DNA of 64,000 nucleotides from Candidatus Polarisedimenticola svalbardensis. GTDB lineage: Bacteria > Acidobacteriota > Polarisedimenticolia > Polarisedimenticolales > Polarisedimenticolaceae. How positions within the stretch are numbered: position 1 is the first letter of the stretch; every line of letters starts with the position of its first letter. The stretch lies in NCBI GenBank assembly GCA_014764515.1, contig JACXWD010000002.1, positions 1-64,000 on the forward strand, written 5' to 3'. The translations under genes were made by a program, and so were the position numbers. Shown piece by piece: positions 17,355 through 60,961 of the stretch. The notes below the pieces were generated by a model that did not search any database, was not told where the DNA came from, and saw only the letters and a list, made by a program, of their open reading frames with translations.

Positions 17355-20300
17355 GTGCCCCTCGTGACCAGCAGTACGAAGGACAAACCAGCCCCCCGCC
17401 GGAAGAGAGTCTGGCTCCGGCGCCTGGTGCTCGTGCTTGTCCTGTTGTTCCTGGTCGGCGCGCCCCTTGCCACCTATCTCCTCCGACACCGGATCGCCGA
17501 CCGGCTGCTGGAGAACCTGGTGCGCAAGGTGGAGGACTCCTCCGGAGGGTCCCTGACCATCGGCCAGGCCGACCTGGACCTCCTCCGTCTCAAAGGGGAT
17601 CTCGGTGACGTCCGGCTGGAGATCCCGCAAGAGGCCGGCCCTCCGTTCCTGGCCTCTGTCCGGACCGTTTCCGCCTCATTCTCTGTAGGCGACCTGTTGC
17701 GGTTGCCGGCCGGGCAGATATCGATTCGCAGCCTGGAAGTGGTAGGCCCCGATATCCGTTTCGATCGCTCTTTCCTGGAGCGGCCGGCCCGGGACACCGG
17801 GGAGGATCTGGCCCTGGACCTCAAGATAGGGGTGTTGGCGATTCGGGACGGGCGATTCCGGTATGAAGGCAAAAACCTGCCTCTGGCGGTGGATGTGCGC
17901 AATCTGGTCCTCTCGGCGGAGTGGGACGATGCCGCCCGGCTGCTGGACGGTGCGGTTTCATTCCAGTCGGACCTGGTCGGTGGGCCGTTCCGCACATCAC
18001 TGCCCCTGGATATTTCCTCCCGATTCCGGCAACGGGGCACCCGGGCCGAACTGACCCGGATGGTGGCGGAGGCGGAAGCGGGCCGAGCCGAACTGACGGA
18101 AGCGACGGTGAGCTGGGATGACGGTGTGCGGATTACCGGTACCGGTGAGGTGGAAGGCGACCTGGCCCGGTTCGGTGAGCTGCTGTCTCCGGGAATGCCG
18201 GTGCTGGCCGGCGAAGTCGGAGGGGACCTCCGTCTGGAGTATGGAGCAGGGGAACTGCTGATCCACAGCAGGATAGAGGGTCACAGTGTCCAGGTCGGTC
18301 CGGTACGGACCGGCAGGGTGTCGGCGGATGCCTCCATCGATCTGGACGCCCTGACCCTGGACCGCCTGGAAGGAACCGCATTCGGCGGAGCGGTCAGTGG
18401 ATCGATCCAGGTGCCCTGGAACCTGGACCGGGAACTGCGGATGGATCTGGCCGGCGCCGCCATGAGCGCCGAAAGGCTGTTCCGACTCCTGGAACTGCCG
18501 CTGCCGTTCGCCGCCGACACCGACCTGACCTTCCGGTTCGTCGGTTCGTGGCCGGAAAGGTCGACCTGGAACGGGTCGGGCAAGGCGGTCCTGCGCAGCA
18601 GGGAGATTGACGATCTGATCCCTGTAGATGGTGAAGGGGAATTCGGGATCCGTGCAGGAGTGCTCCAGGTCGATGCGCCGCGGTTCATCACTTCCGGGGG
18701 CCTGTTCTCGGCTACGGTCAATGTTGACCTGGTCCACGGCCGCTCCGGTGAAGGGCAGTTCCTGAGACTGGCTGGACAGACCGACGACGCCGGGAGAACC
18801 CGGGACATTACGTCCCGGATCCTGGAGAGGTTCGACACCGCACTCCCGGACACCTTGATGGAGCCTCTCTCCGGCTCCGGCGACATTCAGGCCGAGATCG
18901 GGCTGGGGGAGCAGACCTTCCTGGATATGACCCTGGACCTGGCAGACGGGTCGTGGGGGCCGGAGCCGTACCGCCGGCTGTCTTTCCGCACGTTGATGGA
19001 AGGTGATCAGGTTCGAATCCGGGACATGGATATCGACAGCGGGGACTGGACACTGGCCGGCGAGCTTGAACTCGGTCTTGCAGCCGGCGATCTGGTTTCG
19101 GCGTCCCTGACCGCCCGGCGCTTCCCCCTGGAGCGGGTTCTGCAGGTGACCGGCATGGTGGCCGACGCCACCGGCCTGCTCAGCGGCAGGGTCCGGCTGA
19201 GACCAGGAGAGGACGGCGTTCATGGTGACGGCGAAATGACCATGGAAGAAGCGGTCATCGCCGGCTTCCCTGCCGGGGTGCTGGCCGGGTCCGTCAGGGC
19301 GGAGGCCGGCCGAATCCGGATCGGCGATCTTACCGTCAACGGACCGGGGATCGAGGCCGATCTGGATGTTCAATACGACATGACCAGCGGCGAGGCCGAT
19401 TTCAGGATCCTGCGATCCACGATCCTTCCTTCGGAACTGCCTCTCTATGACGGCGAGCCGCCGCCGTTCCAGGCCCCTGCGGAGGTGGCAGGTACGGTGC
19501 AGTACCGGGACGAGGAGTTCAGCGGCCTCCTGGAAGTACAGGGTTCCGGATGGTCCCTTGCCGGCCATGATCTCCCCGACCTGGCAGCCAGGGTCCGGCT
19601 GGAGCCGGCCGGTCTGGAAGCCCGGATCCACTCCAGGGAAGGAGACAGCCTGGAGAGCGACCTCACCCTGGGCTGGGACGATGGGCTACCCCTGGTCCTC
19701 CATCTCAAACTTGGTGACTACCGCCTGTTGTTGGGGGATCCCAGTGACGCGACGCCGATGTGGACCCGGCTCTCAGGCTCGGTGGAGGTGCGTGGTGACC
19801 TGGCTGACCTGGACAGCCTGACCGCCGACGGTTCCCTGGAGCAGATGGATATCCGTGTCGGGGCCCACCACCTGAACCTGGACCGGCCGGCCCCCCTGCT
19901 TCTCAACCGGGAGCGGCTGGTGGTCGGTCCGGTGGAACTGGGTGGCGAAGTGTCCGACCTGAGAGCTCGGCTGACCCTCCTTCGGGATGACGGCAGCGTT
20001 TCCATGGACGTCACCGGCAAGGTCGCCCTGGCTGCGTTGGCTGCACCGCTCCCGGACCTGCGGGCCCGGGGGAATGCAGAGGTCGATCTCCACCTGGCCG
20101 GTACCCTTGAGGATCCGGATCTCACCGGTCAGGTCCGGTTCCAGGACGGGTGGGTCCGGCTGCTCGGCTTCCCCCAGCCGCTGGAGCAGGTCCGGGGCAT
20201 CATCCGGTTCGGGAACGATGAGGCGGAACTTTCCGCATTCTCCGCCCGGTTCGGAGGAGGCGAGCTGTCAGGAGAAGGTGGGCTGCAGTTCGACCGCTTC

Positions 20301-23300
20301 ACGCCGGACTCGTACTTCGTTTCCCTGATCCCGGTGAACACCAGGATCGGCTACCCGGAAGGATTCCGGGGCGTCTATGAAGGTGATCTCCTCCTGCGCG
20401 GGGACCGGACCGACGCCCTGATCAGCGGACGGCTGGAGCTGCTGCGCGGCCTCTACCAGGAGCCGTTCGACATGGCGGCGCTCCTGGGTTACGGCGCTCG
20501 GGAGTACTCGGCCGACGAGCTGGTGATGCTGCCGGTTCCGGTGACTGTGCGCCTGGATATTTCCGCCGCCGATGGGATCTGGATCAAGAACGACGTGGCG
20601 GAGCTGGAGACTTCCCTGGATCTCGATATCAACGGCAACGTGTCGGCACCTGAAGTCACCGGTCGCATCACGATCCTTGAAGGGGGCAGAATCCGCTTTC
20701 GGGACGTGGAGTACCGCATCCGGTCCGGTTCCCTTGAACTGCTGGACCTGAACAAGATCAATCCCTACATGGATATCACCGCCGTGACCACGGTGAACAA
20801 ATACGAGGTCACCCTGAGGATCGAGGGCACCCTGGACCGCTTCGAATACGATTTGACCAGCGTGCCGTCCCTGTCCCAGCAGGACATCCTGGCGCTCCTG
20901 ACCACCGGCTACACCCTGGAAGACATGGCGGCAGGCCCGGGCTCCTCCGGTCTGGATCTCACCGGCGACATGGCGGCCAGTTATTTCGCCAGCGCCCTGA
21001 CCGGCCTTTTCGAAAATCAGTTGAAGAAAGTGTTCCGTCTGGAGAGGGTCCGGATAAACCCGTACGCCGCCAGCGGCAGCGCCGACCCCACCACCCAGTT
21101 GACCCTGGGAAAAGAGGTCGCCGACAACCTGTTCATCATCTACTCCACCGAGCTGGGAGGGGAAGAACGGCAGATCTACAAGGTGGACTGGCAGGTCACA
21201 CGCAAGTTCAACCTCACCGCGGAGAGTGACTCGGACGCCGGGATAGGTGGAGGTTTGGAATTCTCCAACCGGTTCTGGCTGGGGAGGGAGCGTGGAGATG
21301 CCGAGGAGGCCACCGTCGCAGGGAGGCCGGCGGACCAGGCGGAAACCATCGTCCGGTCGGTTGCCCTTCCCGGTTTGTCCGGGGAAGATTCGGCAAAGAT
21401 GCGGAAGGCCCTGCCTTTGAAGGAAGGAGAGCCGTATCGCAGAGCCAGGCTGTTCGAGGGCGCCGAAGAGATCCGCAGGATCTATGTGCGGGAAGGCCAC
21501 ATCCTGGCCGCCGTGGAGCCGGACGTCAGCCACCTGCCGGATCAGACCGGCGTGGACGTGATCTACGCCGTCGATCCAGGACCGGTCTACCAGGTGCGGT
21601 TCGAAGGTGTGCCGGCCAAGGTCGAGAAGGGGCTGCGCAAAGAACTGGAGGAGATGTGGATCGAGTCGATCTTCGTGGATGAAGGGTTCGAGGACTCGAA
21701 GGTGAGTGTGCAGCAGTACTTCCAGAAGCGGGGACATTACACCGTGGATGTGTCGGTGGAAATCGATGCCGAAACCGGCAGAGGCGCCGGGGAGAAGCGT
21801 GCGGTCGTATTCAGAATCGACCCGGGACCCCGGGTGGCAGTCCAATCCCTGACGTTCGAAGGGAACGCTTCCATCGAGGAAGCCCGCCTGCGGAAACAGG
21901 TCCTGACTTCCACAGGCTCGACCTTCGGGAAGGATTATCTCTTCCCGAAAACACTGGAGAGCGATCTGGGAGCGATACGTAACCTGTACCGGGATAACGG
22001 TCACCTTCTGGTGCAAACCCCGCCACCCAGGATCCGCCTCCTGACCACTGGTGACCAGGCCGATATCGTACTGCGTGTTGCGGAAGGCCCCCGGTTCACC
22101 GTCTCCGGTGTGGAGTTCCCGGAACCGGGACCGTTCGACCCGGACCAGATGGCCGGTTGGGCCGGCCTGCCCACAGGCGGCTTGTTCAGCCCCAGGGCGC
22201 TCCTGGAGGCGGAGGGGCGGCTCCGCGGGGCCCTGGACCGGGAAGGGTACCCGGAGGCCCGTGTGGACGGTTCCGGCATAATTGCCGAGGACACTGTCCT
22301 GGTCCGTTTCAAAGTCATCCCCGGACAGCGGGCCACGGTGGGGGATATCCGCATCGAGGGCAACCACCGCACCCAGGACAAAATCATCCGCAGGGAGCTG
22401 ACCTTCAAGCGCGGCGAGACGATTTCACGGGCCAGCATCCTCAAGAGCCAGCACAACCTGTACCGCCTGGGGCTGTTCAGCCGAGTGCGAATCGATTACC
22501 AGCCCGAGGCCGGTGCTTCAGGCGATGCATTCACCATGGTCGTCCAGGTGCGTGAGTCGCCGCCTTTCCGCCTAAGGGTCGGCGCTGGTTACAGCAGCGA
22601 ATACGGCGCCCGGGGCGAGGTGGTGGTGACTCACGAAAACGTCGGTGGGTACGATCGCAGCCTCACCCTCCACGCCCGGGCCAGTGAACAGGAGCGCTGG
22701 CTGCAGGTTCTGATCGAAGAACCCCGGCTGTTCACGCAAAAATGGCCGGCACTGATCAGCATGATCAGCGAACGCCAGGAGGAGATCGGTTACAGCTTCC
22801 GGCGTCGCTCCGGTGCGCTTCGTGTCGAACACGAGTTCCGGCAGAACTGGAAACGGTTCTTGCGGTACAACCTGCAGCGGGTCGATCTGTTCGATATCCA
22901 GGCCGGGAGTGAAGACCTGATCCTGGAGCAGAAGCTGGAAGACCTGGATCTGGGTGACATCGGCTTCGCACTGGTCCGGGACACACGGGACGACCCGTTC
23001 CTGACCCGGAAGGGACAGTACCTCAGCTCCGAACTCCGGCTGTTCGCCCCGGCCCTGGGCTCCGATGCTTCCTTCGGGAAATTTTCCGCCCGTGGGTCGT
23101 TCACCCGGACATTCGATGGAGGCGGCACATTCGCTTCCGGTCTCCGTCTCGGGTTGGCGGAGACCTATGGCCCTACGACCCGTGTTCCGCTGTCGGAGAG
23201 GTTTTTCGCCGGAGGCGATCGCACCCACCGCGGGTTCGCCAGGGACCAGCTCGGGCCCCGGGGCAGTAACGGAGTGCCCCTGGGAGGGGAATCGATGCTG

Positions 23301-23546
23301 CTGTTCAGCCAGGAGTGGCGCCAGCCGCTGTGGCGGATGCTGCGGGGGGTCGTGTTCTACGACGCCGGCAACGTTTATCTGACCCTTCCGGATTTCAGGC
23401 CGGGGGACCTGCGCCACGCGCTGGGACTGGGGCTGCATGTTGAAACGCCGATCGGGCCGATCCGTGTGGAGTACGGTCACAAACTGGATCGGGAGGACGG
23501 TGAATCCCGCGGCGAATACTTCCTCTCCATCGGCCAGATCTTCTGA
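17355..23546 (+). CDS. TamB-Omp85 (BamA/TamA-like) fusion, envelope-spanning translocation/assembly protein
   Basis: One uninterrupted 2063-residue frame. Residues about 18-42 form an inner-membrane signal anchor after a basic start. Residues about 45-1310 are a TamB/AsmA-like beta-rich repeat, ending with the TamB (DUF490) C-terminal block (SQQDILALLTTGY, then LERVRINPYAASG and LTLGKEVADNLFI). After a short linker, residues about 1335-1735 hold five POTRA-like units, the last including IRIEGNHRTQDKIIRREL. Residues about 1736-2063 are an Omp85 beta barrel with FFAGGDRTHRGF (the RGF lid-lock motif) and a C-terminal Phe. In other bacteria TamA and TamB are separate proteins joining inner and outer membranes. 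Here they are one chain. Five POTRAs is the BamA count, against three for TamA. Starts GTG 17355; GTG 17364 is possible. It probably inserts outer-membrane proteins or moves lipid. Confidence 0.9.
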   Translation: MPLVTSSTKDKPAPRRKRVWLRRLVLVLVLLFLVGAPLATYLLRHRIADRLLENLVRKVEDSSGGSLTIGQADLDLLRLKGDLGDVRLEIPQEAGPPFLASVRTVSASFSVGDLLRLPAGQISIRSLEVVGPDIRFDRSFLERPARDTGEDLALDLKIGVLAIRDGRFRYEGKNLPLAVDVRNLVLSAEWDDAARLLDGAVSFQSDLVGGPFRTSLPLDISSRFRQRGTRAELTRMVAEAEAGRAELTEATVSWDDGVRITGTGEVEGDLARFGELLSPGMPVLAGEVGGDLRLEYGAGELLIHSRIEGHSVQVGPVRTGRVSADASIDLDALTLDRLEGTAFGGAVSGSIQVPWNLDRELRMDLAGAAMSAERLFRLLELPLPFAADTDLTFRFVGSWPERSTWNGSGKAVLRSREIDDLIPVDGEGEFGIRAGVLQVDAPRFITSGGLFSATVNVDLVHGRSGEGQFLRLAGQTDDAGRTRDITSRILERFDTALPDTLMEPLSGSGDIQAEIGLGEQTFLDMTLDLADGSWGPEPYRRLSFRTLMEGDQVRIRDMDIDSGDWTLAGELELGLAAGDLVSASLTARRFPLERVLQVTGMVADATGLLSGRVRLRPGEDGVHGDGEMTMEEAVIAGFPAGVLAGSVRAEAGRIRIGDLTVNGPGIEADLDVQYDMTSGEADFRILRSTILPSELPLYDGEPPPFQAPAEVAGTVQYRDEEFSGLLEVQGSGWSLAGHDLPDLAARVRLEPAGLEARIHSREGDSLESDLTLGWDDGLPLVLHLKLGDYRLLLGDPSDATPMWTRLSGSVEVRGDLADLDSLTADGSLEQMDIRVGAHHLNLDRPAPLLLNRERLVVGPVELGGEVSDLRARLTLLRDDGSVSMDVTGKVALAALAAPLPDLRARGNAEVDLHLAGTLEDPDLTGQVRFQDGWVRLLGFPQPLEQVRGIIRFGNDEAELSAFSARFGGGELSGEGGLQFDRFTPDSYFVSLIPVNTRIGYPEGFRGVYEGDLLLRGDRTDALISGRLELLRGLYQEPFDMAALLGYGAREYSADELVMLPVPVTVRLDISAADGIWIKNDVAELETSLDLDINGNVSAPEVTGRITILEGGRIRFRDVEYRIRSGSLELLDLNKINPYMDITAVTTVNKYEVTLRIEGTLDRFEYDLTSVPSLSQQDILALLTTGYTLEDMAAGPGSSGLDLTGDMAASYFASALTGLFENQLKKVFRLERVRINPYAASGSADPTTQLTLGKEVADNLFIIYSTELGGEERQIYKVDWQVTRKFNLTAESDSDAGIGGGLEFSNRFWLGRERGDAEEATVAGRPADQAETIVRSVALPGLSGEDSAKMRKALPLKEGEPYRRARLFEGAEEIRRIYVREGHILAAVEPDVSHLPDQTGVDVIYAVDPGPVYQVRFEGVPAKVEKGLRKELEEMWIESIFVDEGFEDSKVSVQQYFQKRGHYTVDVSVEIDAETGRGAGEKRAVVFRIDPGPRVAVQSLTFEGNASIEEARLRKQVLTSTGSTFGKDYLFPKTLESDLGAIRNLYRDNGHLLVQTPPPRIRLLTTGDQADIVLRVAEGPRFTVSGVEFPEPGPFDPDQMAGWAGLPTGGLFSPRALLEAEGRLRGALDREGYPEARVDGSGIIAEDTVLVRFKVIPGQRATVGDIRIEGNHRTQDKIIRRELTFKRGETISRASILKSQHNLYRLGLFSRVRIDYQPEAGASGDAFTMVVQVRESPPFRLRVGAGYSSEYGARGEVVVTHENVGGYDRSLTLHARASEQERWLQVLIEEPRLFTQKWPALISMISERQEEIGYSFRRRSGALRVEHEFRQNWKRFLRYNLQRVDLFDIQAGSEDLILEQKLEDLDLGDIGFALVRDTRDDPFLTRKGQYLSSELRLFAPALGSDASFGKFSARGSFTRTFDGGGTFASGLRLGLAETYGPTTRVPLSERFFAGGDRTHRGFARDQLGPRGSNGVPLGGESMLLFSQEWRQPLWRMLRGVVFYDAGNVYLTLPDFRPGDLRHALGLGLHVETPIGPIRVEYGHKLDREDGESRGEYFLSIGQIF

Positions 23547-23554
23547 TCACAGGC

Positions 23555-23600
23555 AAAAAAATCCGGCAGCCACCGCGGGGGGGAATGGGCGACTGCCGGA
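23555..23600 (-). terminator. Intrinsic terminator of the sigma4-domain gene
   Basis: On the minus strand an 8-bp stem (TCCGGCAG with CTGCCGGA, plus-strand arms 23562-23569 and 23593-23600) is followed directly by seven T. It lies 26 bases past the stop codon of the minus-strand sigma region-4 gene. On the plus strand the hairpin has no T-run after it, so it does not terminate the TamB-Omp85 transcript. Confidence 0.85.
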
Positions 23601-23625
23601 CCTGCCGAACCAGGAGAGGAGTTTT

Positions 23626-23985
23626 TCAGGCCAGGGAAAACTTCAGATGGCCTTCATGATGCTGAAGTACCTGGCGTAATTTCTGTTTGGCTTCCCGTTC
23701 CAACTGGCGGACCCTCTCACGGCTCAGATTCAGGGTCCTGCCGATTTCTTCAAGGGTCAGCTCGGCGCCGCCGAGCAGGCCGAAACGGTTTCGGATGATA
23801 TGCCGTTCCCGATCATCCAGATCGGTCAACGCCGACCGTACAAGGCCGGCAATCTCTTTCGTGTAAAGTTCGTCCATCTGGCTTTCAGAATTCGCATCGG
23901 TCAACAGGCTCGAAAGCCTGCATTCGCCCGAAGGATCTACAAAGTCGTCAATGGACCGTTCTTTCTGCAGCAGCGGAATGAACAC
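23626..23985 (-). CDS. Stand-alone sigma-70 region 3.2/region 4 protein
   Basis: A 119-residue protein from GTG 23985. Residues about 8-50 match the sigma region 3.2-to-4 linker (SIDDFVDPSGECRLSSLL), and 50-110 match region 4, with LTDLDDRERHIIRNRFGL and the helix-turn-helix LTLEEIGRTLNLSRERVRQ. Regions 1.2, 2 and 3.0 are missing, so it cannot bind a -10 element alone. The start is set by a nine-base perfect Shine-Dalgarno AGGAGGTGA (23998-23990) four bases upstream. Longer in-frame sequence to 24078 has no sigma similarity. It has its own terminator. Options: a decayed sigma factor, or a functional region-4 subunit working with a separate region-2 protein, as known for the split SigO/RsoA system of Bacillus. 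The signals for expression favour function. Confidence 0.75.
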   Translation of the reverse strand: MFIPLLQKERSIDDFVDPSGECRLSSLLTDANSESQMDELYTKEIAGLVRSALTDLDDRERHIIRNRFGLLGGAELTLEEIGRTLNLSRERVRQLEREAKQKLRQVLQHHEGHLKFSLA

Positions 23986-24083
23986 CCTGTCACCTCCTGT
24001 CGAGCCCCTCGACGTCCATAAAAGCAACTCCCGTGCCGGAATTTCAGATCTGGACCATAAACAGGCCGAAATTTCCATAAGTT

Positions 24084-24089: not shown

Positions 24090-24229
24090 AATAAAGCTCT
24101 AATATTCGACTGGCCTGAGGCGGCGCAGTGTCGTTCCGGCGTGCCGGCGTCCGTATGACGCGCCTTCCTGGCATCCACAGTGGTCATCTTGATGCAAAAT
24201 TGGCACGCACGCTGATGGTTTTGGACCAG

Positions 24230-60094: not shown

Positions 60095-60961
60095 ATGCAA
60101 GAGGAAAAATCAAAATCACGCGGCGCAGGCGGCTCCGGCTCGGAATCTCTCAAGAAATACCTGAAGGAGATTTCCCGGCTTCCTCGCGTTACCGCCGATG
60201 AAGAGAAGGTGCTCGGGAAGCAGATCCAGGGTGGAGACCGCAAGGCACTCCAGACCATGGTTGAGGCGAACCTTCGCTTCGTGGTCTCTTACGCCAAGCG
60301 CTACCGGGGATGCGGCCTCTCGTTTCTGGACCTGATCAACGAGGGCAACATCGGTCTGATCGAGGCGGCCAAGCGATTTGACCCGGCCAAGAAGGTGAAG
60401 TTCATCACCTACGCCGTATGGTGGGTTCGCCAGGCGATCATCCATGCGCTGTCGGACCAGAGCGGCGCCTTCCGCCTGCCCCAGAAACAGGCCAACCTGT
60501 TGTACCGCATCGGCAAGACCCAGGCGACGCTGCGCACCGAACTCCGGCGCACACCGTCCACCGAGGAAGTCGCCAAAATGATGGATGTGACGGTCACCGA
60601 GGTCACCAACCTTCTGCTGGTCTCCGACGACAACATTTCCCTGTCGGCGGTCATCGACGAGGAGCACGACTTCCACCTCTCCGACAAGCTGGAGCAGGAG
60701 ACCATTCCGTCGGCGGATCTGGTCCTCCTGAAGAATTCTCTCAGGATCCTTCTCCGAAAGGCGCTGAACGACCTGGATGCGAAAGAGGAAAAGGTCGTCC
60801 GCCAGCGGTTCGGCCTGGACGGCACCGATCCCAAGACCCTGAAGGAGATCGGGGAGATGATGAATCTCTCCCGAGAACGGATACGGCAGATCGAAGCCCA
60901 GGCTCTAGAGAAGCTGAACCGGTCCCAGAAATGCCAACAGCTCCGCGGCTACCTGAACTGA
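60095..60961 (+). CDS. RNA polymerase sigma factor, sigma70 group 2 (RpoD/SigA-like)
   Basis: A 288-residue sigma factor with regions 1.2 ([20 protein letters not shown], cited at about 18-37), 2 ([26 protein letters not shown] and [13 protein letters not shown], by position), 3 and 4 ([14 protein letters not shown]). It lacks region 1.1, which marks group 2 alternative sigmas. Region 2 and region 4 are both intact, unlike the minus-strand sigma4 protein at 23626. It follows hsp20 by 62 bases and overlaps no gene. A stress or stationary role is likely by location but unproven. Confidence 0.93.

Follow-up and report, generated by a model that had tools for sequence, protein, structure and literature searches.

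A stand-alone sigma factor region 3.2-4 protein behind a predicted sigma-54 promoter, and its possible role as one half of a two-subunit sigma factor

Introduction

What can a gene do which encodes only the end of a sigma factor? Sigma factors are, to our knowledge, almost always made as one polypeptide. The 64-kb stretch of DNA analysed here (the window) carries a short gene whose product consists of region 3.2 and region 4. We call this stand-alone product the tail, and a sigma factor that ends at the junction of regions 3.1 and 3.2 is called a front half; the genome of the window is G000. The locus raises the question whether the tail is a remnant or a working protein, and with which partner it could work.

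If the finger and domain 4 do act as a unit separate from domains 2 and 3, a sigma factor could have its finger and flap contacts supplied in trans, and a sigma factor in two pieces would be a natural AND gate in transcription. A sigma-54 programme, which lies here beside pilin and exported-protein genes, would then be linked to sigma-70-type output.

The gene and its signals

The tail (Table 1) has the translation VFIPLLQKERSIDDFVDPSGECRLSSLLTDANSESQMDELYTKEIAGLVRSALTDLDDRERHIIRNRFGLLGGAELTLEEIGRTLNLSRERVRQLEREAKQKLRQVLQHHEGHLKFSLA. The Pfam model PF04545 (Sigma70_r4) matched it with E 1.7e-17 and 63.1 bits against a curated cut-off of 24.1, and no Pfam match to regions 1.2, 2 or 3 was found in the ORF. 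Residues 6-110 aligned with regions 3.2 and 4 of RpoS, SigB and SigA, and phmmer aligned residues 6-109 with RpoS and 11-105 with SigB and SigA. Region 2 was absent both from the ORF and from the DNA 5' of it, here and in the orthologues, which sets the tail apart from a full sigma factor. In the AlphaFold2 model the region-4 helices were confident (pLDDT about 71-93 over residues 41-110), and residues 1-33 were without structure, predicted to be disordered in isolation. Foldseek superposed the tail on region 4 of SigA at 1.7-1.8 Å over about 60 residues, including WhiB-bound and beta-flap-fused forms.

Table 1. Features of the tail gene, with positions in the window
Feature	Position	Strand	Basis
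Tail gene, 119 aa, GTG start, TGA stop (stop codon included)	23626..23985	-	translation, PF04545, RpoS/SigB/SigA alignments, orthologues
Region 3.2 (sigma finger), residues 11-33, SIDDFVDPSGECRLSSLLTDANS	23887..23955	-	RpoS/SigB region 3.2 alignment, dN/dS, invariant residues
Region 4, residues 56-107, intact -35 recognition motif LSRERVRQLE	23665..23820	-	PF04545, AlphaFold2, Foldseek, dN/dS
Shine-Dalgarno sequence AGGAGGTGA, nine bases, 4 nt 5' of GTG	23989..23997	-	sequence
Sigma-54-type promoter (predicted) CGGCACGGGAGTTGCT	24023..24038	-	-24 GG at 24037-24036, -12 GC at 24025-24024
Intrinsic terminator, long GC hairpin and T7	23555..23606	-	RNA fold

The gene is monocistronic: it has a predicted promoter and a terminator to itself. 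The hairpin of the terminator has a folding energy of -33 kcal/mol (z -3.55, with no shuffled sequence folding equally well), and the T7 run follows it at about 23561-23555. The initial annotation had described region 4 and the 3.2 linker as conserved with regions 1.2-3.0 absent, a GTG four bases after a nine-base ribosome site, and a stop followed by a strong hairpin and T7; all of these hold, with the ORF starting at region 3.2 and keeping a complete region 4. An in-frame ATG at 24078, which would give 150 aa, was rejected as the start because the orthologues begin at the GTG residue with their own ribosome sites and the extension would cross the promoter.

The tail gene is divergent from mutL in families f1-f5, in the genomes examined. 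In the window's order and in families f4 and f7 (the f7 contig ends before mutL) a fused tamB-bamA gene converges on it as well, and it lies at other locations in f8, f12 and f6. The fused gene of the window (17355-23546, plus strand) encodes 2063 aa with TamB (PF04357), POTRA repeats and an Omp85 barrel; this TamB-BamA/TamA fusion is kept in the window's order and in f4 and f7. A dyad-like sequence, GTGCCAWTTTTGCAC, is present at about 24195-24210, about 200 bp 5' of the tail gene and some 45 bp 5' of mutL, and also at four further loci. It is possibly an activator site or a mutL promoter element.

Distribution, phylogeny and selection

A profile search covering 41 genomes of the window's class found the tail in 33 of them, whereas 355 other genomes sampled from the same phylum gave no match; some of the eight genomes of the class that are without it are nearly complete. 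From genus through family and order to class, the orthologues have equal length and begin at the same residue, and every one of them has a ribosome site and start codon of its own. No remnant of region 2 was found 5' of the gene in any relative examined. In the tree of region 3.2-4, the 32 stand-alone rows form one clade with support of 99/99. The clade adjoins full-length sigma factors of about 300 aa from the same class, with weak sister placement (81/27), and these sigma factors, encoded in the same genomes, are the nearest full-length relatives of the tail. An alignment-based contig scan gave no stand-alone homologue among the matches listed, which were full-length sigma factors; a phage collection gave no match, and a plasmid collection gave one, a full sigma factor.

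Between close pairs the tail has dN/dS of 0.03-0.075. By segment, the value rises from 0.011 in residues 1-10 and 0.014 in region 4 to 0.025 in region 3.2 (computed over six close pairs), 0.094 in residues 34-55 and 0.244 at the C-terminal end. Four residues of region 3.2 (S11, D13, R23 and D30) are invariant. Conservation extends over the whole of region 4, R59/E60 and the -35 helix included; the F68 position, on the presumed beta-flap face, is nearly invariant, as is the recognition helix LSRERVRQLE among the orthologues. Residues 1-33 are thus predicted to be disordered alone, yet they are constrained like a folded domain, which points to a sigma finger that functions within RNA polymerase. 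So we infer that the N-terminus of the tail behaves as a finger there, rather than the tail being a plain repressor.

The tail is, as judged from its sequence and that of its orthologues, a real and selected sigma fragment and not a decayed full-length sigma factor. The suggestion in the initial annotation of a maintained and expressed gene is supported by conservation, purifying selection, the single clade, the predicted promoter and the terminator. The two contrary outcomes, a full-length sigma factor at this locus in relatives with remnants of region 2 upstream in the window, and the loss of purifying selection, were both sought and neither was seen.

The sigma-54-type promoter

The predicted promoter of the tail gene is of sigma-54 type: the invariant GG and GC are ten bases apart in a -24/-12 arrangement, at a suitable distance, and the site is conserved. 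GC lies about 38 nt 5' of the tail start, and the transcript is predicted to begin near 24012. The motif GGCACN5TTGCT has its sole copy in the 64-kb window at this promoter, with 0.09 expected. A -24/-12 site precedes each of the 28 primary orthologues examined, 25-45 nt 5' of the start (92 in one); its spacer and flanks vary, and the chance of such a score is about 5e-5 per position. Among 27 full-length sigma genes of the same genomes no such site was found, the best score being 12.0. Family f5 has three second stand-alone region 3.2/4 paralogues, and these are without the sigma-54 site. A box of GAGGGG type is seen repeatedly in the predicted 5' UTR, 3' of the -12 element and 5' of the ribosome site (24000-24020 in the window; orthologues in f1-f3).

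The rpoN gene was found in 38 of the 41 genomes of the class; in one genome with the tail (G023) no RpoN match was found. In the window's genome rpoN is at G000:C82:66218-66697, a few kb past the window end and near a sigma gene at 60119-60952. Exact consensus sites elsewhere in this genome numbered 18, against 12 for a reversed control, so they are only partly enriched. Eight exact-consensus sites lie 5' of a type IV pilin-like gene, a gene for a ComEA-like helix-hairpin-helix protein and several genes for exported proteins, which suggests the reach of the sigma-54 programme here. Another element, TGGC[CG]C-N5-[CT]TTTCA, is conserved 5' of seven full-length sigma genes of the C85 type. It resembles a sigma-54 site at -24, but TTTC replaces TTGC at -12.

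A complementary truncated sigma factor

Two findings go beyond the initial annotation, namely the conserved sigma-54-type promoter and a complementary front half of 263 aa. The front half was found when each region-2 match of the window's genome was translated individually. It is encoded at G000:C6:76076-76864 and has regions 1.2 and 2 and, of the 78 positions in region 3, the first 47; a region 4 was not found 3' of it in any frame. On the NCBIfam models the front half and the tail tile a complete sigma factor without overlap: they cover 46-173 and 174-277 of TIGR02394 (RpoS), 89-215 and 216-320 of NF004207, and 79-218 and 222-316 of NF005920 (SigB), respectively.

Front halves that stop at the same column were found in five of the six genomes of the window's family (G000, G001, G003, G004 and G005) and in G012 of another family, where the start is missing at a contig edge. 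All six of these genomes also carry the tail. The two genes lie at unlinked sites and go back to separate full-length sigma factors, the front half to one of C85 type. The front half is under purifying selection: comparison of G000 with G001 gave dN/dS of 0.073 overall and 0.043 in the last 95 codons. A sigma-54-like site, TGGCCCTGTTCTTGCT, precedes it in these two genomes, 46-55 nt 5' of the candidate starts, and another, TGGCCCGGCCCTTGCT, lies 44 nt 5' in G005. G003 and G004 have weaker sites, with scores of 12.5 and 11.5, which lie no more than about 14 nt 5' of the start. In G001 the front half is missing about 25 residues of region 2.1-2.2 through an in-frame deletion, so its core binding should suffer, unless the loss is an assembly error.

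In the remaining genome of the window's family (G002, 81% complete), no front half was found at the search sensitivity, and the sigma factors examined have region 4. Nor was one found in eight genomes of other families, where all group-type sigma factors examined keep region 4. The search in G011 gave none apart from one sigma factor running off a contig end, and that in G037 none apart from apparent assembly frameshifts. An apparent RpoD without region 4 and an ECF sigma factor, both in G037, look like frameshifts of a single-contig assembly and were not counted, and a candidate running off a contig end was also set aside.

Because no front half was found in most of the other tail-bearing families, pairing is not a class-wide function; if real, it would be a trait of the window's family and perhaps of G012 too. 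The split sigma factor proposed in the initial annotation therefore stands in part: in the window's family truncated sigma factors end exactly at the 3.1/3.2 junction, whereas in most other families with the tail no such partner was found. The lone region-2 protein expected from the Bacillus case was likewise found only in another form. No short RsoA-like protein (<150 aa) was seen in six genomes, bar one ORF cut at a contig end, and the partner that was found is longer, with regions 1.2-3.1.

Possible function

The tail likely works on RNA polymerase, since it retains the finger and the -35 helix as well as the flap-facing residues. In the window's family a two-subunit sigma factor is the simplest reading, because the co-occurring halves fit to the residue and both follow sigma-54-like sites. 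We therefore favour, with confidence that is evenly balanced, a subunit of regions 3.2 and 4 that is induced by sigma-54 and acts in trans on RNA polymerase, and which in the window's family forms half of a two-subunit sigma factor.

Upon an inducing signal, an enhancer-binding activator would fire and the tail would be made from its own sigma-54 promoter. Its domain 4 would dock on the beta-flap, where it could read the -35 element of target promoters, and its N-terminal 33 residues would enter the RNA-exit/active-site channel. The separately encoded sigma factor of regions 1.2-3.1 would provide the other half in the window's family, and in at least three genomes (G000, G001 and G005) it appears to be preceded by the same kind of promoter. 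Paired in this way, the two-subunit sigma factor would be active only when both halves are made. In families without a front half, the target is probably an existing holoenzyme, whose own domain 4 the tail would replace or assist.

Partner-free action could also be of another kind. The tail alone may fill the beta-flap and the exit channel and displace domain 4 of the resident sigma factors, which would lower -35-dependent transcription and shift the balance while the sigma-54 programme is on. Such a competitor or modulator, which the initial annotation had also raised, suits the many families in which the tail occurs without a front half, the predicted sigma-54 control and the full conservation of region 4, F68, R59/E60 and the -35 helix included; the phage protein P7 and Rsd show that interference at the region 4/flap interface is workable (PMC3985653, PMC5053324, PMC3089606). 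A competitor would not obviously need such strong constraint on a helix that reads -35 and on a sigma finger, and the exactly complementary front halves would be left unexplained. We regard this explanation as rather unlikely, while taking it seriously.

It is also conceivable that the two halves meet by accident, the front halves being paralogues that were truncated recently and are heading for decay, unrelated to an older tail that works alone. Their restriction to one family plus G012 and the region 2 deletion in G001 would fit this. But the end column is identical in the front halves kept by five genomes of the family, dN/dS between G000 and G001 stays at 0.04-0.07 to the last codon, and three front halves have a sigma-54-like site of matching geometry, so that we consider coincidence unlikely.

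Loss of RNA-polymerase binding is still less probable. In that case the tail would be an ordinary helix-turn-helix activator or repressor on TTGACA-like sites, as many regulators use small HTH domains, and its nearly invariant recognition helix and monocistronic gene with own promoter and terminator would be in keeping with that. Region 3.2 and residues 1-10 are useless for DNA binding alone, yet they are equally constrained (dN/dS 0.011-0.025), and so is the presumed beta-flap face with F68. That the tail is a pseudogene, a remnant of a full-length sigma factor or a MAG artefact is scarcely credible: it is shorter than normal sigma factors, but its length and start are the same across the class, purifying selection is strong, the promoter is conserved and the relatives examined have no region-2 remnant 5' of the gene.

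The sigma-54-induced subunit acting in trans thus remains the reading that we prefer, and a fuller scenario can be put forward tentatively, with well under even confidence. A sigma factor split at 3.1/3.2, with unlinked halves that are both induced by sigma-54, would form a relay from sigma-54 to a two-piece sigma-70-type factor. The tail would be ancestral in the class and serve several sigma factors in trans, and in one family the partner would have given up its own finger and domain 4, both being supplied by the tail.

Comparison with known systems

The tail aligns end to end with region 3.2-4 of RpoS, SigB and the group-2 sigma-70 factors (TIGR02394, NF005920). Unlike them it is without regions 1.2-3.1, and it scores 76.6 against 378.7 bits, far under the family cut-offs. 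In phage T4 a sigma-2-like protein (gp55) and a flap-binding protein (gp33) are separate polypeptides, and gp33 is not known to be a -35-reading homologue of sigma region 4. The division of sigma-2-type and flap-binding functions between two polypeptides is shared with gp55/gp33. The tail differs from gp33, which is of phage origin, in that it is a sigma region-4 homologue and had no match in the phage collection.

Complete sigma factors under sigma-54 are known, as in the RpoN-RpoS cascade of Borrelia. HrpL is likewise a complete sigma factor whose gene is under sigma-54 control (PMC5263251). The tail gene resembles both as a sigma-family gene with a predicted sigma-54 promoter, whereas its product is a sigma fragment. 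With P7, AsiA and Rsd the tail would share the sigma-4/beta-flap interface as its site of action. These proteins are not sigma homologues, whereas the tail is itself sigma region 3.2-4.

The closest parallel is the SigO-RsoA pair of Bacillus subtilis: sigma-4 comes from SigO, sigma-2 comes from RsoA, and neither is dispensable (PMC10028694); a structural review places the pair in group III (PMC10141391). In the literature searched (open-licence papers) no other cellular two-subunit sigma factor was found. The parallel rests on the split architecture and not on specific sequence similarity: in both cases sigma regions 2 and 4 are on separate polypeptides and the region-4 protein is separately encoded. 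Here, unlike SigO-RsoA, the cut is at the 3.1/3.2 junction, so that the front half retains regions 1.2-3.1, the two genes are unlinked, the predicted promoter is of sigma-54 type, and the tail is class-wide while the front half is not.
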